From Ancylobacter sonchi (GTDB lineage: Bacteria; Pseudomonadota; Alphaproteobacteria; Rhizobiales; Xanthobacteraceae), in assembly GCF_018390695.1 (NCBI RefSeq), contig NZ_JAHBGF010000015.1, forward strand, positions 1 to 64,000: DNA of 64,000 nucleotides, read 5' to 3'. Position numbers and translations under genes: made by a program. Below the pieces are notes generated by a model. It did no database searches and was not told the DNA's origin. It saw only the letters and a list, made by a program, of their open reading frames with translations. Below are positions 1,324 through 42,278 of the stretch, piece by piece; positions within the stretch are counted from its first letter, which is position 1, and every line of letters starts with the position of its first letter.

Positions 1324-2178
1324 GTGGCTGTTGGCGACCCAAAAAAGCATCATTTTGTTCCCCAGATGCTGCTGCGACGGTTCGCGGATAGCGACGAACG
1401 GCTCTTCCACTATACCCGGCACAGGCCAGAGGTATGTCAGGTACATATTTCTTCGGCTTTCTTCCGCAACCACCTGTATGCAATGCCACCGGTCGATGGA
1501 GAACGTGACGTCACTCTTGAAAGGCAGTTTGCGGAACTGGAAAGCATTGTCGCACCTCTTCTCGATGAACTCCAAGCGCCCATCCTGACGGGCCAATACC
1601 CGAAGCTGAATCAAAATGCGCGCGAAGCCTTGTGCCTGTTCTTCTATCAGCAGTGGCGGCGGGTTCCCGACTTTCATGATGAGATCATGGGCATGGATGG
1701 TTGCGTTGCTGCCATTAGAGATGCCATCTCCCAGTTTGAAGTCGACTACCGGCCACTTTCTCCTGCCGAACGTGAAACGCTCCTAAATGCAGAAGCGACT
1801 AGACATTTCCGGCAGCGTGCGCGTGTTAACTCGTTGGGCTCCGCAAGCAAGAGGACGGTTGATGTTCTGTTCGATAAGGGACTCGTCTTCGGCCTGGCGC
1901 CACCGAGGAAATCTTTTATCATCGCTAGTCACCCCGTATTGAAAGTGATCCCATGGGGTGCATCAAACGAGTTAAATGATCCGAAGGTTGAGGCTTGGCT
2001 GCCAATCCACCCGAAGATCGTTATGGCCTTCGCTGGCACAAGGGATCGGCAAGCCGTCGTGCAGCTTCCTGACCGTGAAATCCGCCTTTATAATCTCGCG
2101 GTGGCGCGTCGTAGCACCGAATTCGCTTCAACATCACGCGAGCTTCTGGAATCAATTCGGCGCCATTGCCCTCGATAA
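1324..2178 (+). CDS. DUF4238 domain-containing protein
   Basis: The 284-residue product opens with VGDPKKHHFVPQMLLRRF. The KKHHFVPQ block near residues 7-14 is the signature start of the DUF4238 family. The family is widespread on genomic islands and occurs near antiphage genes, but no activity is established to my knowledge. Translation probably begins at the GTG at 1324, because that places the signature right at the N-terminus as in relatives. The gene lies between the DUF4145 and AlbA_2 genes, all on the plus strand with short gaps, so the three may be co-transcribed cargo of the element. Confidence 0.75.
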   Translation: MAVGDPKKHHFVPQMLLRRFADSDERLFHYTRHRPEVCQVHISSAFFRNHLYAMPPVDGERDVTLERQFAELESIVAPLLDELQAPILTGQYPKLNQNAREALCLFFYQQWRRVPDFHDEIMGMDGCVAAIRDAISQFEVDYRPLSPAERETLLNAEATRHFRQRARVNSLGSASKRTVDVLFDKGLVFGLAPPRKSFIIASHPVLKVIPWGASNELNDPKVEAWLPIHPKIVMAFAGTRDRQAVVQLPDREIRLYNLAVARRSTEFASTSRELLESIRRHCPR

Positions 2179-2221
2179 TTGGTTGAGACCTTAACTGTCT
2201 CCAAACAGGATCCAACTTTCG

Positions 2222-3364
2222 ATGATTGCGATGCGCCTGTCAGACGTGAAATTTTCGGATATTAAAGAATTAGTCGAACAGAAAGCACGTGAAAGCAGAA
2301 CACTTGAATTCAAACGCGAACTATCTATAGCGAAAGATAGCGATAAAAAAGAGTTTCTTGCCGACATTTCGTCCTTTGCTAACACGAACGGCGGAGACAT
2401 AATATACGGAATAACTGAGATAGATGGAGAAGCGATAGAACTTGCGAGCCTCGACGTCGCGGATAGAGATGCCAAGTCGTTACAGATAGAGCAGATTGTA
2501 CGAGGTGGCTTGGAGCCCAAGTTACCGCAATTCGAGCATCGTTGGATCGAAGGAGAGGGCTCTACCATATTCTTGGTGCTGCGCGTTGGGCGCAGCTTCC
2601 TGGCTCCCCACCGGGTCACGGTCAGCGATCATGCCAAGTTCTACGCTCGGCACGGAGCAGGAAAGTACGCCATGGATGTCAGTGAGCTTCGATTAGCTTT
2701 CGCCACCTCCGAGGCGATTAGCGAACGCATGCAACGCTTCTGTGAGCAGCGGCGGCGCCTCGTCGCTGACAATATCGCGGTGGTACCGATGAGATCGGGG
2801 GCAAAGATGGTGTGCCATTTTCTGCCACTATCAGCTTTTGGGCTACCAACCCAGATAGATCTGAAGAAAGCCAGCCGGCATCTTTTTCCACCAACGAGGA
2901 CAACCGGCTTCAACTCACGTCCGACCATCGATGGCTTAGCATGCTATGGAGGCGCAGAAGGTCACAGTGAATCAATATTTTCGTACTCTCTGGCCTTTCG
3001 ATCCGGAATACTAGAAGCCGTGGAAGTCGTGGGATCGGAATCTCAGAACGGACGCATGGTAATTGATGCATCATATACTGAAGAGAACATTGAACGGTGC
3101 CTTCGTATGTACGCCAAAATATCTAAGGAATGCGAAATAGGTGGCCCGGTATATCTTTCACTCAGCTTTATGGGAACCACCAATTATTCCCTTTACGTTC
3201 ATCACTGGGACGAGCAGCGCGCAGTACCATCGGTCCATCGCCCCGAATTAATTCTCCCCATTGTCGAGATTGAGGACATGAATGTCGACGCGACCACGGC
3301 CTTGAAGTCAACATTCGAGTTGGTATTCAACGCCTTCGGTCGGACACGTCCGACCGACAAATAG
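2222..3364 (+). CDS. AlbA_2 (Schlafen-type) putative DNA-binding protein
   Basis: The 380-residue protein has an AlbA_2 domain at about residues 12-160. The characteristic parts are TLEFKRELS near 28-36 and the block SFANTNGGDIIYGI at 51-64. AlbA_2 is related to the core of eukaryotic Schlafen proteins and is usually annotated as nucleic-acid binding; several bacterial defence proteins carry it. The rest (160-380) matches nothing I recognise. A second ATG lies three codons in and I cannot decide between them. Base composition is AT-richer than the chromosomal genes to the right. It converges with the integrase gene across a 167-base repeat-rich gap. Confidence 0.75.
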   Translation: MIAMRLSDVKFSDIKELVEQKARESRTLEFKRELSIAKDSDKKEFLADISSFANTNGGDIIYGITEIDGEAIELASLDVADRDAKSLQIEQIVRGGLEPKLPQFEHRWIEGEGSTIFLVLRVGRSFLAPHRVTVSDHAKFYARHGAGKYAMDVSELRLAFATSEAISERMQRFCEQRRRLVADNIAVVPMRSGAKMVCHFLPLSAFGLPTQIDLKKASRHLFPPTRTTGFNSRPTIDGLACYGGAEGHSESIFSYSLAFRSGILEAVEVVGSESQNGRMVIDASYTEENIERCLRMYAKISKECEIGGPVYLSLSFMGTTNYSLYVHHWDEQRAVPSVHRPELILPIVEIEDMNVDATTALKSTFELVFNAFGRTRPTDK

Positions 3365-3391
3365 CGCGTTTTCAGCATGCCAGACCAGTTT

Positions 3392-3503
3392 GTTCCCCTT
3401 GTTCCCCAGCCTACTCTGACTTGGGGAACAAGCCGGGGAACACCGAAAATCGTTGATACAGAACGGTTTGGCGAACCTGTTCCCCTTGTTCCCCACGTTC
3501 CCC
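3392..3503. repeat. Array of GTTCCCC heptamers with internal stem-loop
   Basis: Between the convergent AlbA_2 and integrase genes the heptamer GTTCCCC occurs five times (3392, 3401, 3479, 3488, 3497). The copies fall in two groups with an exact 9-base period. Two inverted copies, GGGGAAC, lie between the groups at 3423 and 3435. The arm CTTGTTCCCCA (3398-3408) pairs perfectly with 3422-3432 to form an 11-bp stem with a 13-base loop. The array could be integrase arm-type binding sites, a bidirectional terminator, or both. Confidence 0.7.
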
Positions 3504-3531
3504 ACCGAAACGATGTAGCCGAGAACGAAAA

Positions 3532-4779
3532 TCATTCTCCCGCGCGCGCCATATGCGCGAGGATGGCGTCAGACACCTTGTCGGCAGCGGCGACCAGAAC
3601 GCTATCGAGATGGTGGACGTATCGACTGGTGACGGTCGCGGCGGCATGACCGAGCAGCGCGGCGATGGTGCTTTCCGAGAACCCCAGGTCGCCAGCTGTG
3701 GAAGCATAGCTGTGCCGAAGGGTGTGAGCCGTGACACCCGCGAGGCCCGCCCGTTCAACGATGCGGGCGAGGCCGGCCGGAAGGGCGCCATAGAACTCCG
3801 CACCGCCGCGTGCCGCCGGCAGGACATAGGGGCAACCCGGCCGCTTTGTCATGTCCGCCAGCATATCGAATACGGCTCGGCCGGTGGGCCGCACGCTAGC
3901 ACCTTCCTTGGTGTCCTCCAGCCGCAGGCATTGCCCAGCCTCATCGACCTCAGACCATTTGAGCTTGGCAATCTCTCCGATGCGGCAGCCCGTCAGCGCG
4001 AGCAGCTTGACACCAGCGATCGCCTGTTCGATTTCCGTCTCGCTCGCGGCCTGGCGCAGCGCCTCTCCGAGCTTGCCGTATTCTGTGGGCGTCAGGCGTC
4101 GCTCCCGCCTCTTGTCGGCCGGGCGCTTCACGCCAGTGGCGGGATTGGTGTCAATTACCCCTTCCGACAGGGCGTAGCTGAGGATACCGCCGAGCAGGCC
4201 GGCCGTCCTGGCGGCCGTGCCGGCGCCCCCCTCTACAATGATCCTGCTGCGCGCTCTGCCGGTCTTCTGATCCACGGCGGTCTTTCCGGCCGCAACGTCG
4301 CGGATGAATTTAGCGATGTCGGACTTCGACAAATCGCGGACCAGCTTCTTGCCGAGTAGCGGCGTGATGTGAGCAGCGATCCTGCCGCGATCAACGTAGA
4401 GGGTAGTCGCCTTCTTTGCCCGCCCCCGCTTTCCCATGATCAGCCCGCGCTCGGCAGCCGCGAGATAGTTGTCACAAAGCTCCGAGACGGTGAGCGAATT
4501 GCGACGTGTCGTGTGCTCAAGTGCCGGATCTTCGCCCCGTACGGTCTCGCCCATGGTGGCAATAGCGAGCTTGCGGGCCTCCTCCGTGGTGATCTTGCCG
4601 TGCCGGCCGATCGTCATCCGTCGCCGGACACCGTCGGCGTTCCGATAATCGACGAAGTATGTCCGCCGGCCGGTGGGATGAATATAGACCCCGAAGCCAG
4701 GCAGATCGCTGCACCAGAGGGTGAACTGACGCTCGCGAGGCGCCGCGGTATCGACGATGGATTTGGTGAGCTTAGGCAC
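3532..4779 (-). CDS. Tyrosine-type integrase of the integrated element
   Basis: The 415-residue site-specific recombinase has a DUF4102 arm-binding N-terminus (residues 1-90), a SAM-like core-binding domain (about 95-215) and a C-terminal catalytic domain. The catalytic residues are visible: R266 in TGCRIGEI, K291, H352-x-x-R355 in HTLRHS, H378 in LLGH and the nucleophile Y387 in TSRYVHH. Integrases of this P4/XerC-like kind insert elements into the 3' end of tRNA genes. That fits the tRNA-Arg 3' fragment 176 bases upstream of its start. It reads away from that att site, towards the cargo. The gene looks intact, so excision may still be possible. Confidence 0.95.
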   Translation of the reverse strand: MPKLTKSIVDTAAPRERQFTLWCSDLPGFGVYIHPTGRRTYFVDYRNADGVRRRMTIGRHGKITTEEARKLAIATMGETVRGEDPALEHTTRRNSLTVSELCDNYLAAAERGLIMGKRGRAKKATTLYVDRGRIAAHITPLLGKKLVRDLSKSDIAKFIRDVAAGKTAVDQKTGRARSRIIVEGGAGTAARTAGLLGGILSYALSEGVIDTNPATGVKRPADKRRERRLTPTEYGKLGEALRQAASETEIEQAIAGVKLLALTGCRIGEIAKLKWSEVDEAGQCLRLEDTKEGASVRPTGRAVFDMLADMTKRPGCPYVLPAARGGAEFYGALPAGLARIVERAGLAGVTAHTLRHSYASTAGDLGFSESTIAALLGHAAATVTSRYVHHLDSVLVAAADKVSDAILAHMARAGE

Positions 4780-4932
4780 GTGGCGACCTTTGCCTTACAG
4801 AAAAAACTCACCAAATACTCACCACGAAATGCCCATCTCGGGAATATGCTCGCCATTTCGGGCGATCAGAACAAAGAATGAAAATCGTTTATTTTCATGA
4901 GCTTATATCTGCGAAGAAATCTCCGGCGATGA

Positions 4933-33289: not shown

Positions 33290-33616
33290 GCTTCCTCTCC
33301 GGAGTGGCTCACCGCGAATGTGGGGGCCCACGGCCCATCTGCAATCGCGTGGCCGGAATGATGGCATCTACGTCCTGTCGGACCGAGGCATCCCGCTGCT
33401 ACCGCATACATCGTGATCGCCGTCATCGGCAGGTGCCGACCCTCGCCCGCCCTTGGTGTTCGCTATCCAACCTTGCGGGGCGTCACCGCCACAGCGGCTT
33501 CGACGCGCCGACCTCCCTCTCTACCGGGATATCGGCCGTCGCCCCCAATTCCTCGGTCGACCTACCCCGCCCGACGCCAGGCGGCCCCGCATCCAAGGAC
33601 GTTCAAGGCACGTGAG
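33290..33616. other. Divergent intergenic region without recognised gene
   Basis: No gene or RNA was seen in these 327 bases between the GlxA-type regulator and the exported royal-jelly-family protein. The frame of the latter is open across much of it, but the proline/arginine-rich translation looks non-coding. Confidence 0.5.
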
Positions 33617-34714
33617 ATGAACTGGATAACCACGCTTTCGGCCGCCACGATGATCCTTACCTCCGGCACGGCGATATCGGGAGCCGCGGCGGCCCCGATC
33701 GACATCGAGATCGCCGCCGAAAGCCACGACATGATCTGGAACGCCGTCGCGGTGGACCATGGCCGCGTCTTCGTGGCGGGCCCGCGCTGGACCGGCTCGA
33801 AAGGCCCCTCACTCGCCCTCATCGACGGGCATGGGATCGCCCGGCCCTATCCGTCGCCGCAATGGAACGGCTGGACGCCGGGCGTCGCCAACGGCACGAC
33901 CTTCGTCAACGTGAACGCCATACATCTCGACGGCAAGGGTGGGCTCTGGGCGGTAGATACCGGCTCGCCGGAATTCGGCGGCGACCCGCTGCCGGGCGCC
34001 GCCAAGCTGGTCCGCCTCGACCTCGCCACCGATGCGGTCGACCGGGTGATTCCGCTCGGGCCGACGGCGGCGCTTGCCGGCAGCTATATCGACGACATCC
34101 GCTTCAACGGCGACCATGCCTACCTCACCGATGCCGGCAGGCCGGGGCTGATCGTGCTCGACCTGCGTGACGGCTCCACGCGCCGGGTTCTGGAGGGCCA
34201 CGGGTCGGTAACGGCACGCCCGGACCGGGACATCTTCCTCGACGGCCAGCCCTTGACGGGTCCCGACGGCAAGCCCCTTCACGTCCATAGCGATCCGCTT
34301 GAAGTCTCGCCGGACGGCAAATGGCTTCATTACGGACCGCTGGAGGGGCCGTGGTCGCGCATCGAGACACGCTTTCTGGACGATGCCTCGCTATCGCCGG
34401 ACGAGCTCGCCGAAAAGGTCGAGCCCTGGGCCAACCTGCCGCCGGTCGGCGGCACGGTGATGGATTCGAACGGCGATCTCTACTTCACCGATCTCGCCGC
34501 CAATGCCCTTCGCAAACGCGCGGCGGACGGCACGGTGACGACGCTGCTCGTCTCGCCGGAACTGCACTGGGTCGATGCCCCTTTCATCGATACCGACCAC
34601 GTCTTGTGGCTGCCGGTGCCGCAGATCGATCGCGCGGCCATGTTCAACGGCGGCACTTCGCAGATTCGCTGGCCCATCAGGCTGTTCCGCCTGCCGCTCG
34701 GCGCCCGGCCGTGA
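33617..34714 (+). CDS. Exported major royal jelly-family (Yellow-like) protein
   Basis: The 365-residue protein has a Sec signal peptide (about 1-26, ending SGAAAAP) and a six-bladed beta-propeller of the MRJP/Yellow family: PSPQWNGWTPG, GLWAVDTGSPEFGG, YIDDIRFNGDHAYLTDAG, GGTVMDSNGDLYFTDL. Bacterial members are periplasmic or secreted and of unknown function; some related propellers are lactonases. The start is the ATG at 33617, with GGCACGTGAG upstream. It is followed 46 bases later by a quinone-oxidoreductase-type gene. Confidence 0.88.
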   Translation: MNWITTLSAATMILTSGTAISGAAAAPIDIEIAAESHDMIWNAVAVDHGRVFVAGPRWTGSKGPSLALIDGHGIARPYPSPQWNGWTPGVANGTTFVNVNAIHLDGKGGLWAVDTGSPEFGGDPLPGAAKLVRLDLATDAVDRVIPLGPTAALAGSYIDDIRFNGDHAYLTDAGRPGLIVLDLRDGSTRRVLEGHGSVTARPDRDIFLDGQPLTGPDGKPLHVHSDPLEVSPDGKWLHYGPLEGPWSRIETRFLDDASLSPDELAEKVEPWANLPPVGGTVMDSNGDLYFTDLAANALRKRAADGTVTTLLVSPELHWVDAPFIDTDHVLWLPVPQIDRAAMFNGGTSQIRWPIRLFRLPLGARP

Positions 34715-34760
34715 GCGCAACCCGGCCCTCCGGCCGATCCACAATCCTCAGGAGATCAAG

Positions 34761-35774
34761 ATGAAAGCAATCGGCTATCAGCAGCCCGGCCCCATCGATC
34801 GCGAGTCCGCGCTGATCGACATCGAGCTGGAACGCCCGAAGGCAACGGGACGCGACCTTCTGGTCGAAGTCCGGGCCATCTCGGTCAATCCGGTCGACAC
34901 CAAGGTACGACTCGGCGCCGCGGCGCCGGCCGGCGAGTGGAAAGTGCTCGGCTGGGACGCCGTCGGACGCGTGGCGGAAATCGGCGAGGCGGTGAGCGCC
35001 TTCAAGCCGGGCGATGAGGTCTACTATGCCGGCTCCATCGCCCGCGCCGGCGCCAACAGCCAGTTCCACCTCGTCGACGAACGCATCGTCGGTCGCAAGC
35101 CGGCTTCATTGTCCCACGCCGAAGCCGCCGCGCTGCCACTCACGGCGATCACCGCCTGGGAGATGCTGTTCGACCGCCTCGATATCCGCAGGCCGGTGCC
35201 GGGTGCCGCCAACGCGATCCTCATCATCGGCGGCGCCGGTGGCGTCGGCTCGATCGCCATCCAGCTGGTGCGGGCGCTGACCGACGTGACGGTCATCGCC
35301 ACCGCGTCGCGGCCGGAGACCCAGAGCTGGGTGAAGGAACTCGGGGCTCACCACGTCGTCGACCACGGCAAGCCTCTCGCCGAGCAGGTGGCGGCACTCG
35401 GCATCGGCGCGCCGGCCTTTGTGTTCTCGACGACCGAAACCCACCGGCACTTCAAGGAAATCGTCGAGCTGATCGCGCCCCAGGGGCGGTTCGGGCTGAT
35501 CGACGACCCGGAGACGCTCGATGTCATGTCTTTCAAGCGCAAGGCGGTGTCGACGCATTGGGAGTTCATGTTCACCCGCTCGCTTTTCCAGACGGCCGAC
35601 ATGGCCGAGCAGGGCAAGCTGCTCGACGCGGTGGCTCAGCTGGTCGACGAGGGGAATATCCGTACGACGGTGACGGAGATCCTCCACCCCATCAATGCCG
35701 AGAACCTCGCGAAGGCCCACGCATGGCTCGAAAGCGGCAGGGCCAAGGGCAAGATCGTCCTCGAGGGCTTCTGA
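34761..35774 (+). CDS. Zinc-free quinone oxidoreductase-type dehydrogenase
   Basis: The 337-residue medium-chain reductase resembles zinc-independent NADPH:quinone/2-alkenal reductases: VSVNPVDTKVR-type N-terminal motif (here ISVNPVDTKVR), GWDAVGRV, the AALPLTAITAWEMLFDRL segment and the cofactor motif IIGGAGGVGSIAIQLV near 155-170. No zinc ligands are visible. AGGAG lies seven bases before the ATG. Such enzymes reduce reactive enals and quinones. It sits between the MRJP-like gene and the second GlxA regulator, all on the plus strand. Confidence 0.9.
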   Translation: MKAIGYQQPGPIDRESALIDIELERPKATGRDLLVEVRAISVNPVDTKVRLGAAAPAGEWKVLGWDAVGRVAEIGEAVSAFKPGDEVYYAGSIARAGANSQFHLVDERIVGRKPASLSHAEAAALPLTAITAWEMLFDRLDIRRPVPGAANAILIIGGAGGVGSIAIQLVRALTDVTVIATASRPETQSWVKELGAHHVVDHGKPLAEQVAALGIGAPAFVFSTTETHRHFKEIVELIAPQGRFGLIDDPETLDVMSFKRKAVSTHWEFMFTRSLFQTADMAEQGKLLDAVAQLVDEGNIRTTVTEILHPINAENLAKAHAWLESGRAKGKIVLEGF

Positions 35775-35958
35775 CGGCTCCCTGCACGGTGCGACCGCCG
35801 TGCAGGGCTCCCTCTCCACAAGGCGCGCCATGCCTCGGCATGTCGTGCCCTCCGCGCTCGACCGTCCCCGCAGGTCACTCCTCTGCGACGGATTTGCGTT
35901 CCACCGCGGCGCGTGGAACGAAGGAGCGGTACGGACCGAGGACCAGATCGAAGCAATC

Positions 35959-36921
35959 ATGCGTAAGCTTATCAGTATCGGGCTGCTGGTCGCCGAGGGG
36001 TTCCAGGTCATGGGGCTCGCGGCACTCTCGGCGTTCGAAATGGCCAACCGCGTGCTGGAATATCCCGGCTACGACGTCCACGTCATCTCCGAGCACGGCG
36101 GGCCGGTACGCAACTCCCTCGGATTTGCGATCGAGACCAAGCCGTTTCCCGCAAGCTTCCACGACACCACGGTGACGATCGGCTCACTGGCGATGGGACC
36201 GACATCGCCCGGGCATCTCGATTATCTGAACCGGGCCGTCGGACGCTCCCGCCGGATCGCGGGCGTCTGTACCGGCGCCTTCGCGCTGGCGGAAGCCGGC
36301 CTGCTGAACGGACGGCGGGCGACCACGCACTGGGCGCATGCCGCCCGCCTTCAGGCCGAGTTTCCCGCGATCCGGGTCGATGCCGACCGCATCTTCATCA
36401 ACGATGGCGGGTTCTGGACCTCCGCCGGCATGAGTGCGGCCATGGACATGGCGCTGGCACTTGTGGAGGACGATTTCGGCCAGGAGATCGCGCGCACGAC
36501 GGCGCGCCGCATGGTGCTTTATCTCCGTCGTCCCGGCGGCCAGTCCCAGTTCTCGACCCTGGTGGAAGTCGAGCCGAAGACGGACCGGATTCGTCGGGTG
36601 CTGGCCTACGCGAAGGAAAATCTGGCGAAGGACCTCTCGATCGAGGAACTCGCGCAATGCGCCAATCTCAGCGTCCGCCAGTTCAGCCGGCTATTCCGCA
36701 ACGAGACCGGGCAGACGCCCGCAAAGGTGATAGAGACGCTCCGCCTCGAAGCGGCCCGCCTGCTCATGGAGGAAGGGCGCTTTCCACTCGACGAGATCGC
36801 GCAGATCACCGGATTTGCCGACCGCGAACGTATGCGCCGCGCCTTCGTGCGCTCGTTCGGCCAATCCCCGCAGGTCGTCCGTCGCCGCATCGTCCAGGAC
36901 CGCCAGACCAGCTTCGCCTGA
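35959..36921 (+). CDS. GlxA-family transcriptional regulator (DJ-1/PfpI plus AraC)
   Basis: The 320-residue protein has the same layout as the one at 32348-33289: DJ-1/PfpI half with GVCTGAFALAEAGLL and GRRATTHWAHA, then an AraC half with IEELAQCANLSVRQFSRLF and ITGFADRERMRRAF. The two are paralogues. The ATG at 35959 fits the family's N-terminus (a basic residue, then ISIGLLVAEGFQ). The frame is open further upstream but is not protein-like. It probably controls the neighbouring dehydrogenase genes. Confidence 0.9.
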   Translation: MRKLISIGLLVAEGFQVMGLAALSAFEMANRVLEYPGYDVHVISEHGGPVRNSLGFAIETKPFPASFHDTTVTIGSLAMGPTSPGHLDYLNRAVGRSRRIAGVCTGAFALAEAGLLNGRRATTHWAHAARLQAEFPAIRVDADRIFINDGGFWTSAGMSAAMDMALALVEDDFGQEIARTTARRMVLYLRRPGGQSQFSTLVEVEPKTDRIRRVLAYAKENLAKDLSIEELAQCANLSVRQFSRLFRNETGQTPAKVIETLRLEAARLLMEEGRFPLDEIAQITGFADRERMRRAFVRSFGQSPQVVRRRIVQDRQTSFA

Positions 36922-36991: not shown

Positions 36992-37351
36992 CTACTCGCC
37001 CAGGCAGCGTATCAGTGCCTCGGCGAGGATCGGCTTGCGCAGCAGGCAGGCCGCACCGCCGGCCATCGCACGGCGGCGCACCGTCTCGTCGCCGAGAGCC
37101 GTCATAACGATGATATGCATGGTCGGGTGACGCACGCGAATAATTGCCTGAAGTTCCAGTCCGCTCATCCCCGGCATGTTCACGTCCGTGAGCAGGTGCG
37201 AGATTTCATCCTGCGGGGCGGACTCCAGAAATGCCTCCGCCGAAGCGTAGGAATGGGTCTTGTAGCCAAGAGACTGAAGGAATGACGTCGTAGCGTCGAG
37301 GAATGCTTCGTCGTCATCGACGATCGCTACGGATCTCGGTTTGACCGTCAC
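36992..37351 (-). CDS. Single-domain response regulator (receiver only)
   Basis: The protein is a stand-alone CheY-like receiver of about 119 residues. The acidic pocket D12-D13-D14, the phosphoacceptor D56 (LLTDVNMPGMSGLEL), the T of VMTALGD and the K of RKPI are all present. No output domain follows. I place the start at the GTG at 37351, behind GGGAG; the frame is open to 37453. Receiver-only proteins act as phosphate relays or through partners. It may be phosphorylated by the transporter-kinase encoded at 38449-40950, or be an inhibitor of the FixJ-like regulator upstream. Confidence 0.85.
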   Translation of the reverse strand: MTVKPRSVAIVDDDEAFLDATTSFLQSLGYKTHSYASAEAFLESAPQDEISHLLTDVNMPGMSGLELQAIIRVRHPTMHIIVMTALGDETVRRRAMAGGAACLLRKPILAEALIRCLGE

Positions 37352-37490: not shown

Positions 37491-38135
37491 CTAGGCGTCT
37501 GACGCCACCCTGATGAGCTCCGCCTTGCGAACGAGATCCGCCACGGATGTCGCCTTCATCTTTCGCATGACATTGCCCCGGTGAATTTTTACGGTGATTT
37601 CGCTCACGCCGAGTTCGTGGGCGATCTGCTTGTTGAGAAGGCCCGCCACCACGAGGCGCATCACCTCCACCTCACGGGGCGTGAGGGTGGCCGAAAGCTC
37701 GACGATCCCCACGGTCGCCGCCTTTTCGGCCCGCCGGGCGGTGTCCCGCTCGATGGCCACCGTCACCGCGTCCAGCATTTCCTGGTCGCGGAACGGCTTG
37801 GTGAGAAAGTCCGTGGCGCCGGCCTTCATCGCCCGCACGGACATCGGGATGTCCCCATAGCCGGTCATGAAGATGATCGGCATGCGATTGCCCATCGCGT
37901 TCAACTTGGTCTGAAGATCGAGGCCACTCGCCCCCGGCAGGCGCACATCGAGGACGAGGCAGCCCGGACGATCCGGCAGTTGCGCCTCCAGCAGCTCAGT
38001 CGTGGAACTGAACGCCATCGCCTCCAGCCCCACCGAGTCGAAGATATCGGAAAGGCCATGGCGAATGCCCTCGTCATCGTCGACGACGAGAACGAGAGGG
38101 GTCTGGTTGGGCGCTGGGGTCGTCGGCTTTTTCAT
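37491..38135 (-). CDS. FixJ-family response regulator (receiver plus LuxR HTH)
   Basis: The 214-residue protein has a receiver (12-130; D19-D20-D21, phosphoacceptor D63 in VLDVRLPGASG, T91, K113) and a LuxR-type helix-turn-helix (150-206; LTPREVEVMRLVVAGLLNKQ, SEITVKIHRGNV). This is the FixJ/TodT/NodW layout. It is divergent from the transporter-histidine kinase fusion gene across 313 bases, the typical arrangement of a cognate pair. Upstream GGGCGG lies before the ATG. Confidence 0.93.
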   Translation of the reverse strand: MKKPTTPAPNQTPLVLVVDDDEGIRHGLSDIFDSVGLEAMAFSSTTELLEAQLPDRPGCLVLDVRLPGASGLDLQTKLNAMGNRMPIIFMTGYGDIPMSVRAMKAGATDFLTKPFRDQEMLDAVTVAIERDTARRAEKAATVGIVELSATLTPREVEVMRLVVAGLLNKQIAHELGVSEITVKIHRGNVMRKMKATSVADLVRKAELIRVASDA

Positions 38136-38448
38136 GGGCGGGACCAGTGTGACCGGCCACCCTTACGCCGCCCCCACAAAACGCGCCATGTTTATTTTAG
38201 ATCAAGCCAAGGACATTTCTGCAATAAATAAAGGTCAAAGCGCTCAATTTCGGACATATAGACATCTAATTCAGACATATCCAAAATACATGATCAGTAG
38301 ACGTCGTGGATCGATACCGATAGACAACGGAATATCTGCGCGATCTGGAGCCTCCCGCCGTGCGTTTCGATCACTCCACCGGAGACCACGGACCGGTACC
38401 TCGCAAGCACACGAGCATCCCGCTCCGCGCCAGCACTATCGGCGCGGC
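38136..38448. promoter_or_regulatory. Divergent promoter region of regulator and transporter-kinase
   Basis: These 313 bases between the divergent fixJ-like and transporter-kinase genes are AT-rich around 38190-38290, unlike their surroundings, and must contain both promoters. Half-site-like AGATCAAG and AGGTCAAAG are visible but no full palindrome. The kinase frame is open across the region but no better start was found than the ATG at 38449. Confidence 0.5.
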
Positions 38449-40950
38449 ATGAGCAGCGCCGGACCGGGAGGCTCCCGCCAGAAGTCGGCGCGCGTGCTGT
38501 TCGCCAGCTTGGTCGGCACGGCGGTGGAGTTCTACGACTTCTACATCTATGCCACGGCGGCGAGCCTGATCTTTGGACCGCTGTTCTTCCCGGCATCCGT
38601 GCCCTCGATGGAACTGATCGGCGCCTATGCGAGCTTCGGCATCGCGTTCATCGCGCGGCCGCTCGGAGGCGCGGTGTTCGGCCATTTCGGCGACCGTATC
38701 GGCCGCAAGACGACATTGGTGGCTTCGCTTCTGCTGATGGGCGGCTCGACCGCCGCCATCGGCCTGCTGCCCACCTACGAACTGGTGGGATGGCTGGCGC
38801 CGCTGCTGCTGTGCCTGCTGCGTTTCGGCCAGGGGTTGGCGCTCGGCGGCGAATGGACGGGCGCGACGCTGCTTGCCCTGGAGAACGCCCCGCCCGGCTG
38901 GCGCGCCCGCTACGCGATGTTCGCACCGCTTGGCGCCCCGATCGGCTTCATCATCGCCAACGGGCTGTTTCTCATCCTCACCCTGGTCCTCTCGGTCGAG
39001 GAGTTTCGCGACTGGGGCTGGCGGGTGCCCTTCCTCGCCAGCATCCCCCTGATCTGGATCGGCCTGTGGGTTAGGCTCAATCTGGTGGAGACCATGGAGT
39101 TCGCCGCGGCTCTCGCCGAGGCGCCGCCCCCGCGCGTCCCGCTTCTGGAACTGCTGCGCACCCACCCGCACCAGGTCGTTGCCGGCACGTTCGGCGTCGT
39201 CGCGTGTTTTTCGCTCTACTACACGGCGACCGCCTTCGCCCTCGGCTACGGTACGTCCGTCCTCGGCTATCCGCGCTCGGCCTTCCTGCTCATCGAGCTC
39301 GGGGCCATTCTTTTCATGGGCGCCAGCATCGTGCTGGCAAGCTGGCTATCGGATCGCTTCAGTCCCGAGAACATCCTGATCGTCGGCTGCGCCGGGACCA
39401 TTCTCTCCGGCATCCTGCTGTCGCCCATGATGGGCAGCGGCTCGCTCACGATCGTCTTCCTGTTCCTGTCCTTCTCATTATTCGTCATGGGGTTCGTCAA
39501 CGGCCCTCTCGCCGCGTGGCTACCCGAGCTGTTTCCTCCGCGGATCCGCTATTCCGGCACCTCGGTGGCGTTCAATTTCGGCGGCATCATTGGCGGCGCC
39601 TTCTCGCCGTTGATTTCGCAGGCGCTGGCGGAAGGAAGCGGGCTTGCCGCGGTCGGCTTCTATCTCGCCATCACCGGCGGCCTCAGCCTGATCGCGTTCG
39701 ACTTCAGCGCGCGCAAGCGCACACTCGGGGCGCTGGCCCAGAGCGAGAGCCGATACCGGTCGCTGTTCGAGCAGGCACATGTTTCGCTCTGCGAAATGGA
39801 TCTCACCGATCTGAAGGAGGCGCTGGAGGCGCCGAGCGGCCGCACAGGCAGCGGGCGCGATATGCCTCGCGAGAGAACGTCCCTCGATAAACTCGCCGAG
39901 CTCGTGCACCTTGTCGATGTGAACGAAGCGACGGCGCGGCTTCTGGCCAGCCCAACCCGCGCTTCGGTGCTCGGGCCCATCGAGCGCTTCCTGATCAACT
40001 CCGACATGCTGCTGGAGCCGCTCGTGGCGGCGATCCGCAATCGATCGGGCCATGTGGAGACCCAGATCCGGTTGCGCGCACTCGACGGGCGCGAACTCAC
40101 GGTCATGCTGGTGATGACCTTGCCGGACGACGATGCGTCGTTCCGCCGGGTGAGCGGCGCCATGCTCGACATCACCGAACGCGAGGCGGCGCGCGAGGCA
40201 TTGGCCGCCGCCCAGCAGGAACTGGCGCGGGTCGGGCGCATCTCCACCGTCGGGGCGATCTCCGCCTCCATCGCGCATGAGCTGAACCAGCCGATCGGCG
40301 CCATGGTGATGAGCGTGCAGGCCTGTGTCCGCTGGCTTCAGCGCGACCCACCCGACCTGGACGCCGCGACCCGCGCCGCCGAACGAGCGGTGAAGGACGG
40401 CGTGCGGGCCAGCGACATCATACAGCGCACCCGCGAGCAACTGAGGCAAGCGCGTCGGCAACCCGAGCCGGTCGATCTGCGGAAAGTGGCCGAAGAAGCG
40501 GTCAGCCTGCTCGACCGCGAACTGCTCGCGACCGGCACGCGGGTGCGGCTCGACCTCGGATCGGACGATGCGGCGGTCGTTGCCGATCGCGTGGAGCTGC
40601 AGCAGGTGATCATCAATCTGATGACCAATGGCATGCACGCAATGGGCGAGACCGCGGAAGACGCGCGCCAGCTCGAGATAAGCCTCCGCGCCGAGGGGCA
40701 GGACCTGCTGCTTCTGTCGGTGCGCGACCACGGCAGCGGCATCGTCCCGGAAAATCTTTCGAAGCTGTTCAATCCCTTCTTCACGACCAAGCGCGAAGGA
40801 ATGGGCATCGGCCTCGCCATCTGCCGCACCATCGTCGAGGCCTGCGGGGGCTCGCTGCTGGGCCGAAACGGCGAGAAGGGGGGCGCGGTCTTCGAGGTCC
40901 GGCTGCCGACCGCGCAGGCGCATGACGCGGAGGGGCTGGCGGCCGAATAG
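38449..40950 (+). CDS. MHS-family MFS transporter fused to PAS-histidine kinase
   Basis: The 833-residue protein begins with a complete 12-helix MFS transporter of the metabolite:H+ symporter family (about 15-420). Signs are VEFYDFYIYATAASLIF, the loop 2-3 motif GDRIGRK at 81-87, FGQGLALGGEWTGA and LFPPRIRYSG. Then comes a PAS-like sensor segment (432-580) and a histidine kinase core. The core has H610 in SIAHELNQPIGAM, the N box IINLMTNGMHAM near 721-732, D760-HGSG and the G box GMGIGLAI at 784-791. It therefore looks like a membrane protein that may sense, and perhaps carry, an organic solute and signal to the divergent FixJ-type regulator. The ATG at 38449 gives the usual transporter N-terminus. 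Confidence 0.92.
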   Translation: MSSAGPGGSRQKSARVLFASLVGTAVEFYDFYIYATAASLIFGPLFFPASVPSMELIGAYASFGIAFIARPLGGAVFGHFGDRIGRKTTLVASLLLMGGSTAAIGLLPTYELVGWLAPLLLCLLRFGQGLALGGEWTGATLLALENAPPGWRARYAMFAPLGAPIGFIIANGLFLILTLVLSVEEFRDWGWRVPFLASIPLIWIGLWVRLNLVETMEFAAALAEAPPPRVPLLELLRTHPHQVVAGTFGVVACFSLYYTATAFALGYGTSVLGYPRSAFLLIELGAILFMGASIVLASWLSDRFSPENILIVGCAGTILSGILLSPMMGSGSLTIVFLFLSFSLFVMGFVNGPLAAWLPELFPPRIRYSGTSVAFNFGGIIGGAFSPLISQALAEGSGLAAVGFYLAITGGLSLIAFDFSARKRTLGALAQSESRYRSLFEQAHVSLCEMDLTDLKEALEAPSGRTGSGRDMPRERTSLDKLAELVHLVDVNEATARLLASPTRASVLGPIERFLINSDMLLEPLVAAIRNRSGHVETQIRLRALDGRELTVMLVMTLPDDDASFRRVSGAMLDITEREAAREALAAAQQELARVGRISTVGAISASIAHELNQPIGAMVMSVQACVRWLQRDPPDLDAATRAAERAVKDGVRASDIIQRTREQLRQARRQPEPVDLRKVAEEAVSLLDRELLATGTRVRLDLGSDDAAVVADRVELQQVIINLMTNGMHAMGETAEDARQLEISLRAEGQDLLLLSVRDHGSGIVPENLSKLFNPFFTTKREGMGIGLAICRTIVEACGGSLLGRNGEKGGAVFEVRLPTAQAHDAEGLAAE

Positions 40951-41223: not shown

Positions 41224-41243
41224 CATCGACAATATATTCGATG
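41224..41243. promoter_or_regulatory. Inverted repeat CATCGA-N8-TCGATG
   Basis: The second copy of the half-site pair, here with eight AT-rich bases between, ends 39 bases before the ATG of the AhpD-like gene. That is promoter position. The spacer differs by two bases from the first copy, which argues against strict conservation. Confidence 0.45.
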
Positions 41244-41282
41244 CGCTGCGCGCATGTCATGAGTGCAATCCGGAGACGAGAC

Positions 41283-41630
41283 ATGAGCATGATGGACTGG
41301 AACGACTACCGTCAGCAGGTGCTGGCGGGCGTCGGCGACATGGGAAAGCTGAGCCCCGACACGGTGAGAGGCTATGTCCAGCTCGGCGGCGCCGGCGGCA
41401 AGACCGGCCACCTGGACGCCAAGACGCGCGAACTCATCGCGCTGGCGTGCGCCGTCACCCTTCGCTGCGACGGCTGCATAACCGTCCATAGCGAACAGGC
41501 CCACAAGCTCGGCGCGACGCGCGAAGAGATCGCCGAAGCGCTTGGCGTCGCCATCGCGCTGAATGCCGGCGCCGCGCTCGTCTATTCCACCCGCACCCTC
41601 GACGCCCTCGCGGCGCTCGTCGACATCTGA
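41283..41630 (+). CDS. Carboxymuconolactone decarboxylase-family (AhpD-like) protein
   Basis: The 115-residue protein has the AhpD-type active-site pattern: E50, C62 and C65 (CDGC), and H69. Spacing matches alkylhydroperoxidase AhpD, where the two cysteines reduce peroxides or relay thiol redox. GGAGACGAG precedes the ATG at 41283; an upstream in-frame ATG at 41241 is less well placed. The DUF417 gene starts nine bases after its stop, so they form an operon, probably for oxidative or electrophile stress. Confidence 0.9.
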   Translation: MSMMDWNDYRQQVLAGVGDMGKLSPDTVRGYVQLGGAGGKTGHLDAKTRELIALACAVTLRCDGCITVHSEQAHKLGATREEIAEALGVAIALNAGAALVYSTRTLDALAALVDI

Positions 41631-41639
41631 GAGGCGGAC

Positions 41640-42278
41640 ATGGAACAGCTCTATCTGCGCGGCCTCAGGATCGTTGCGGCGCCCCTGTCGTTCAGGATCG
41701 GTATCGCCGGCATGAAGATCGCGATCGCGATCATCTTCCTCTGGATAGGAGCGCTCAAATTCGTGCCCTACGAAGCGGACAGCATCACCCCCTTCGTCGC
41801 GAACAGTCCCTTCATGTCGTTCTTCTACGACGACCCGAAGGACTACAAGTCGCACCTCACCCGCGAAGGCGAGCTCGATCCGGCGAAGCGGGCCTGGCAG
41901 GTGTCGAACAATAGCTATGGCTTTGCGCGAGGGCTCGGCACGCTCGAACTGCTCATCGGCGGCATGACGCTGATCGGCCTCTGGAACCGGAAGATCGGCC
42001 TCGTCGGTACTTTTCTCGCCTTCGGTACTCCCTTCATCACGCTATCGTTCCTGGTGACGACGCCGGAAGCCTGGGTCCCCGCCCTTGGCGATGCCGAGCA
42101 TGGATTCCCCTATCTGTCGGGGGCCGGACGATTGGTGCTAAAGGATGTCGCCCTGCTCGCCGGCGCCTGGCTGGTGCTCGTCGCCACGGCCCGTGAACTG
42201 CTCGAAGCCCAGCGGGGATCGCAAACCTATGGCCAGCCCAATCGAGTACAGCTGTCCACGAAAACGGCCGGCTCGTGA
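41640..42278 (+). CDS. DUF417 (YkgB/RclC-like) inner membrane protein
   Basis: The 212-residue protein has four hydrophobic segments (about 22-45, 97-120, 125-145, 172-192). It carries the family sequences IFLWIGALKFVPYEADSI and ITPFVANSPFMSFFY. In E. coli the relative RclC is induced by reactive chlorine species. A pairing with an AhpD-like thiol protein supports a redox stress role. The start is the ATG at 41640, with GAGGCGG just upstream. Confidence 0.9.
   Translation: MEQLYLRGLRIVAAPLSFRIGIAGMKIAIAIIFLWIGALKFVPYEADSITPFVANSPFMSFFYDDPKDYKSHLTREGELDPAKRAWQVSNNSYGFARGLGTLELLIGGMTLIGLWNRKIGLVGTFLAFGTPFITLSFLVTTPEAWVPALGDAEHGFPYLSGAGRLVLKDVALLAGAWLVLVATARELLEAQRGSQTYGQPNRVQLSTKTAGS

Follow-up and report, generated by a model that had tools for sequence, protein, structure and literature searches.

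An MFS transporter fused to a histidine kinase in Ancylobacter sonchi, a probable solute-sensing kinase with a FixJ-type partner

The 64,000-nucleotide stretch of Ancylobacter sonchi DNA analysed here (the window) contains a single reading frame in which an MFS transporter is followed, on the same chain, by a PAS domain and a histidine kinase (Table 1). The locus raises the question of whether the joining of these two halves is genuine and, if so, whether the transporter part senses a solute, transports it, or does both.

A transporter and a histidine kinase in one frame

Searches of Pfam and NCBIfam matched the transporter half of the protein to MFS_1, Sugar_tr and TIGR00883. The HATPase_c domain scored above its Pfam cut-off and HisKA slightly below its own, and the PAS domain was also supported. 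The H, N and D/G boxes of the kinase half are invariant in 21 aligned fusion members (alignment A3, which like alignment A4 excludes L064, L066 and L041-L045). The domain order, transporter family and kinase proposed in a preliminary description of the locus are borne out by the domain searches and the catalytic boxes.

The last hydrophobic peak of the transporter stops at residue 417 and the first PAS strand is at residues 445-446, leaving a gap of about 27 residues in which the Pfam search found no family. The full-length AlphaFold2 model of the protein was poor (mean pLDDT 55), too poor to use for the MFS half or to show the coupling geometry, and residues 424-596 were subsequently modelled separately. 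A helix is predicted between the last hydrophobic peak and the PAS domain, with low confidence in the full-length model.

Table 1. Features of the fusion locus, in window coordinates
Feature	Coordinates	Strand	Basis or remark
MFS transporter-PAS-histidine kinase fusion, 833 aa	38449..40950	+	domain searches; full-length relatives
Transporter half, about residues 20-418, metabolite:H+ symporter-like	38506..39702	+	TIGR00883, MFS_1, conserved residues
PAS domain, about residues 445-575	39781..40173	+	a short predicted helix links it to the last hydrophobic helix
HisKA, phospho-acceptor helix, H610	40261..40434	+	
HATPase_c, N, D and G boxes	40585..40914	+	
FixJ-type response regulator	37491..38135	-	divergent from the fusion
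Receiver-only protein	36992..37351	-	start possibly 37453
Intergenic region between the divergent genes	38136..38448	.	probable regulatory region, judged solely from its position
DJ-1/PfpI-AraC (GlxA-type) regulator next to the receiver gene	35971..36921	+	start approximate; association inferred

The fusion is not confined to the window. An intact, single-frame version occurs in 25 of the 27 related loci (L041-L067), one of them 97% and the others 62-70% identical to the protein of the window; these loci are not independent, since they include the 97% copy and two sets of near copies (L044/L045 and L041/L048). A misassembled or misread joining of two genes has next to no chance of being the explanation, given the copy at 97% identity in a second assembly and the 25 unbroken loci: the genes of two relatives are split over frames, but nothing speaks for such an artefact at the fusion of the window itself. 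The transporter-kinase fusion in one frame is thus confirmed as genuine. The two split genes lie on complete chromosomes, in Chenggangzhangella methanolivorans (L064, 6846-9278) and 'Aliirhizobium' terrae (L066, 6826-9301), and may reflect either sequencing error or decay.

The fusion is rare and patchy in its distribution. One of 29 congeners searched carries it, namely Ancylobacter sp. Lp-2 (L046), the source of the 97% identical copy. Among 385 sampled members of the class (two candidates scored per genome), both halves were found only in the genome of the window, and eight others matched the MFS half alone. Nine of 297 sampled genomes of the order matched the kinase half, with the fusion again only in the window's genome, and in a sample of 297 genomes from the family to which Neorhizobium belongs (three candidates scored) only the centre genome has it. 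When residues 385-617 were used as the query in a sample of the same phylum, 6 of 249 genomes matched and the joint was present only in the window's own genome. A scan of a collection of genomes from 84,980 species, with two short patterns based on the joint and on the end of the MFS half, detected at least 22 loci, a lower bound because of the two-pattern design; they come mainly from Rhizobiaceae and Rhizobiales isolates, together with Azorhizobium, Chenggangzhangella and Ancylobacter. The entire fusion is also present in 5 of 21 matching plasmid records (four Rhizobium, one Agrobacterium) at 62-66% identity. The patchy spread and the plasmid copies suggest horizontal transfer.

The public annotation of four plasmid copies of about 850 residues (L041-L044) reads just 'MFS transporter', which hides the kinase half. 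In the genome of the window, which has 59 MFS_1 matches, the four others with the longest open frames (L077-L080) showed no kinase motif when read by eye; one of these resembles a transporter linked to acyltransferase and ligase parts, and the other three resemble transporters with an open frame extending upstream.

Receiver genes and the wider neighbourhood

A FixJ-type gene adjoins the fusion divergently in 26 of the 27 related loci, and a receiver-only gene lies near it in 26 of the 27 as well, so that both neighbouring receivers singled out by the preliminary description recur beside the fusion in other genomes. The exception for the FixJ-type gene is L064, where the sole match is about 5 kb away beside another kinase. 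In five loci (L041, L042, L048, L049 and L057) the receiver-only gene is encoded on the opposite strand, with a gene of the nucleotidyltransferase family after it. The regulator of the window scored 197.3 bits against a FixJ equivalog cut-off of 255 bits and is therefore called FixJ-type rather than FixJ itself; the fusion likewise remained below the FixL equivalog cut-off (168 versus 850 bits). A short AraC-type regulator is found in 23 of the 27 loci, not always adjacent, whereas the window has the larger DJ-1/AraC regulator beside its receiver gene; GlxA-type genes are present in 8 of the 27.

As a control, the FixJ, receiver, short AraC and GlxA queries were run against eight loci (excluding the 6-kb L070) that carry free-standing relatives of the MFS half, and none of the eight gave a match. 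A response regulator is annotated about 2 kb from one of these relatives (L075, Sphingomonas), and it gave no match to the receivers of the window at the cut-off used.

No binding motif common to the divergent promoter regions was found in 20 of 28 regions (the window and 19 loci). Between the FixJ-type gene and the fusion, one Rhizobium clade shares an ACCTA...TAGGT dyad, exact in L052, L053, L055, L058, L062 and L067 and with one change in L061. This dyad is a candidate autoregulatory site, and it was not found in the intergenic region of the window.

Genes near the 27 fused loci include short-chain dehydrogenase (SDR) genes (14 loci), MRJP-like and ADH/QOR genes (9 each), cytochrome c genes (7) and Mo-dehydrogenase genes (6), counts that include self-matches because nearly all queries came from four fused loci and the window. 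SDR genes also occur in three of the eight control loci. Several fused neighbourhoods hold oxidoreductases, with a weak control for enrichment. In the window, positions 33413-36921 encode a major-royal-jelly-like protein, a quinone-reductase-like dehydrogenase and the DJ-1/AraC regulator. Just downstream of the fusion, carboxymuconolactone-decarboxylase and DUF417 genes lie in tandem (41241-42278), genes with a possible connection to reactive-chlorine or electrophile stress. A link of the fusion itself to such stress remains a hunch, since DUF417 was found in none of the 27 related loci, including the 97% copy.

Origin of the two halves

In a tree of the MFS half with 61 rows, built after removal of repeats (L003, L045, L046 and L068-L073), broken copies (L064, L066) and identical segments, the 23 fused rows form one clade with support of 100/100. 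A quick tree of the kinase half with 41 rows placed 26 fused rows in one clade (SH-aLRT 99), with a long-branch warning for other rows; repeats, pieces shorter than 250 residues and pieces with a stop were dropped from this tree, and L095 is absent for such a reason. Because each half forms one clade in the sampled trees, a single fusion event is the simplest reading. The clade of fused MFS halves neighbours the free-standing transporters L033 and L034 from two genomes of the class (66-68% identical), and other nearby free-standing transporters, including those of the sphingomonads L074 (Novosphingobium) and L075, are 60-62% identical. These four MHS-like transporters differ from the fusion in having no kinase attached, with frames of 431-465 residues.

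The nearest non-fused kinases (L093-L101, nine loci from 8 of 297 genomes of the order) are 39-47% identical to the PAS-kinase part. Their systems resemble that of the fusion: all nine have a FixJ gene (56-66% identical), and seven have a lone receiver by the cut-off used, the other two having a second receiver that matches FixJ better. In contrast to the fusion, no MFS match was found in these nine loci, and the kinases carry a short membrane module instead. By reading, this hydrophobic module immediately precedes the PAS domain in L093, L094 and L097, and in the other six an extra PAS-like stretch, confirmed by Pfam for L098, lies between the two. The fusion and its FixJ gene diverge, whereas the kinase and FixJ genes of all nine sister loci are co-directional, so that the gene order changed too and a simple in-place sensor swap is unsupported. 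The simplest account would be that an entire transporter replaced a short sensor module in a single event, accompanied by rearrangement. Non-fused kinases of the sister type also occur within the fused loci L047, L064 and L066; the one in L047 (Azorhizobium, 2034-4811) is a second kinase near the fusion with three PAS_3 matches and no MFS.

The transporter half as a probable solute sensor

The TIGR00883 profile aligns over positions 1-396 of 400 to residues 23-410 of the fusion protein, with a score of 387.2 bits against a curated cut-off of 443.45. With a score below this cut-off, the transporter half is termed MHS-like and not assigned as a member; it is nearest to the metabolite:H+ symporters, and any transport by it may be proton-coupled. 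The preliminary description had hinted at dicarboxylates, betaines or shikimate as ligands. This hint found no support, as the scores of the ShiA, ProP and TcuC models were all far below their cut-offs and no gene of the neighbourhood points to these pathways.

Within the fusion protein, identity between the window and three members from other genera (L047, L049 and L055) is highest in the MFS half (77-82%), intermediate in the kinase core (60-67%) and lowest in the PAS domain (42-44%); the FixJ partner is 71-72% and the lone receiver 52-65% identical. The strongest constraint thus falls on the transporter, which would fit a role in recognising the cue, but helices in the membrane often show higher conservation than linkers do. 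Free-standing paralogues were considered as a rate control and rejected, since copies from other genera are 47-52% identical to each other and are not clear orthologues.

The 15 free-standing representatives share 113 invariant columns; 103 of these have the same invariant residue in the 23 fused rows, and the ten that depart are exchanges among small or aliphatic residues (for example, T247 is mostly replaced by Ala or Val). The MFS half has thus not decayed; it looks like a retained binding site, perhaps even a transporter that still works, adapted to a new function.

The fusion is likely to be a transporter-type sensor kinase, in which the MFS half would sense a solute and signal through the PAS domain and the kinase to the FixJ-type partner. 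It would probably allow the cell to detect a specific small molecule and turn on genes in response. In the proposed sequence of events, a transporter that may have taken the place of an older sensor would bind one conserved small solute at the membrane. By analogy with CbrA, this binding, or the rocking of the transporter cycle, may be relayed from the last transmembrane helix through the short helix to the PAS domain and the kinase. The kinase would then phosphorylate the divergently encoded FixJ-type regulator, its presumed partner, which would switch genes, probably nearby ones, and the receiver-only protein may also accept phosphate and thereby modulate or terminate the signal.

What the transporter half does within this sensor may take two forms. 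The chances are just short of even that the protein is a true transceptor, whose MFS half also imports the solute with protons while the kinase reads the transport state. CbrA, its SLC5 analogue, transports histidine (PMC7096432). In the fusion, all charged residues that are invariant among the free-standing representatives are retained in the 23 fused rows (including E27, D30, R70, D82, R125, E135, R192, E214, D302 and R367), although a conserved binding site by itself might give the same picture. A further argument against transport comes from P159, invariant in the free-standing set and alanine in all 23 fused rows, the most marked departure, and from 15 columns invariant in the fused rows with a residue absent from the 15 free-standing representatives. 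These same changes, three of which (columns 397, 401 and 404) lie in the last helix beside the joint, would fit a pure receptor that binds the solute and no longer transports it, as in UhpC. The loop motif and the charged residues, unchanged in the fused rows, count against this alternative, and we place it somewhat below even. In the UhpA-UhpB-UhpC system, an MFS protein likewise senses at the membrane and passes the signal to a kinase and a LuxR/FixJ-type regulator; unlike in the fusion, sensor and kinase are two distinct polypeptides, and the MFS protein belongs to another subfamily.

It is unlikely that the halves work apart, as a permease co-translated with a PAS kinase whose PAS domain senses, for example, a cytosolic ligand or redox state. 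PAS domains often sense, and redox-enzyme genes lie near several fused loci. The SLC5 and PAS domains of CbrA each bind histidine (PMC7096432). In the fusion, however, the PAS domain is the part that varies most, and in the sister kinases a related PAS domain follows a different membrane module.

As a transporter-type sensor kinase, the fusion resembles CbrA, CrbS and RpuS in having a secondary transporter at the N-terminus joined to PAS and histidine kinase domains. CbrA both transports histidine and is a kinase (PMC7096432), and in PMC13022988 it is called a rare transceptor, with STAC, a four-helix bundle, docked under the transporter. These proteins combine SLC5 with STAC, whereas the fusion has an MFS domain, the short gap before PAS and a FixJ-type partner; no N-terminal SLC5 domain was found in it with Pfam or NCBIfam, and the 27 or so residues of the gap are too few for a STAC bundle. 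We read the fusion as a sensor kinase of a different fold than CbrA and CrbS, and it looks like a second, separately invented version of transporter-kinase hybrids. Passages on transporter-kinases in a review (PMC7918813) and a research paper (PMC9100948) concern SLC5-type fusions, and the terms tried found no passage on transporter fusions in a census of signalling proteins (PMC1183210). All transporter-kinases met in our full-text literature search, which mostly covered papers outside subscription, were of the SLC5 type, and no described MFS-kinase fusion was recognised there, consistent with the earlier view of the locus as a less described type of sensor.

Tentatively, the fusion may represent a second, independently invented class of transceptors, in which a transport-competent MFS proton symporter replaced the plain sensor of a FixJ/receiver system in one fusion event that later spread between Rhizobiales families, partly on plasmids. 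If so, solute uptake and gene control would be united in one protein. As far as our search shows, the coupling of transporter motion to a kinase has been studied so far in SLC5-type proteins, and an MFS version would pose the same question in another fold. Since the sister kinases combine a related PAS-kinase and FixJ partner with a short membrane module, the membrane part could be swapped at a natural joint, and such module exchange would offer a direct test of whether it is binding or transport that is sensed.
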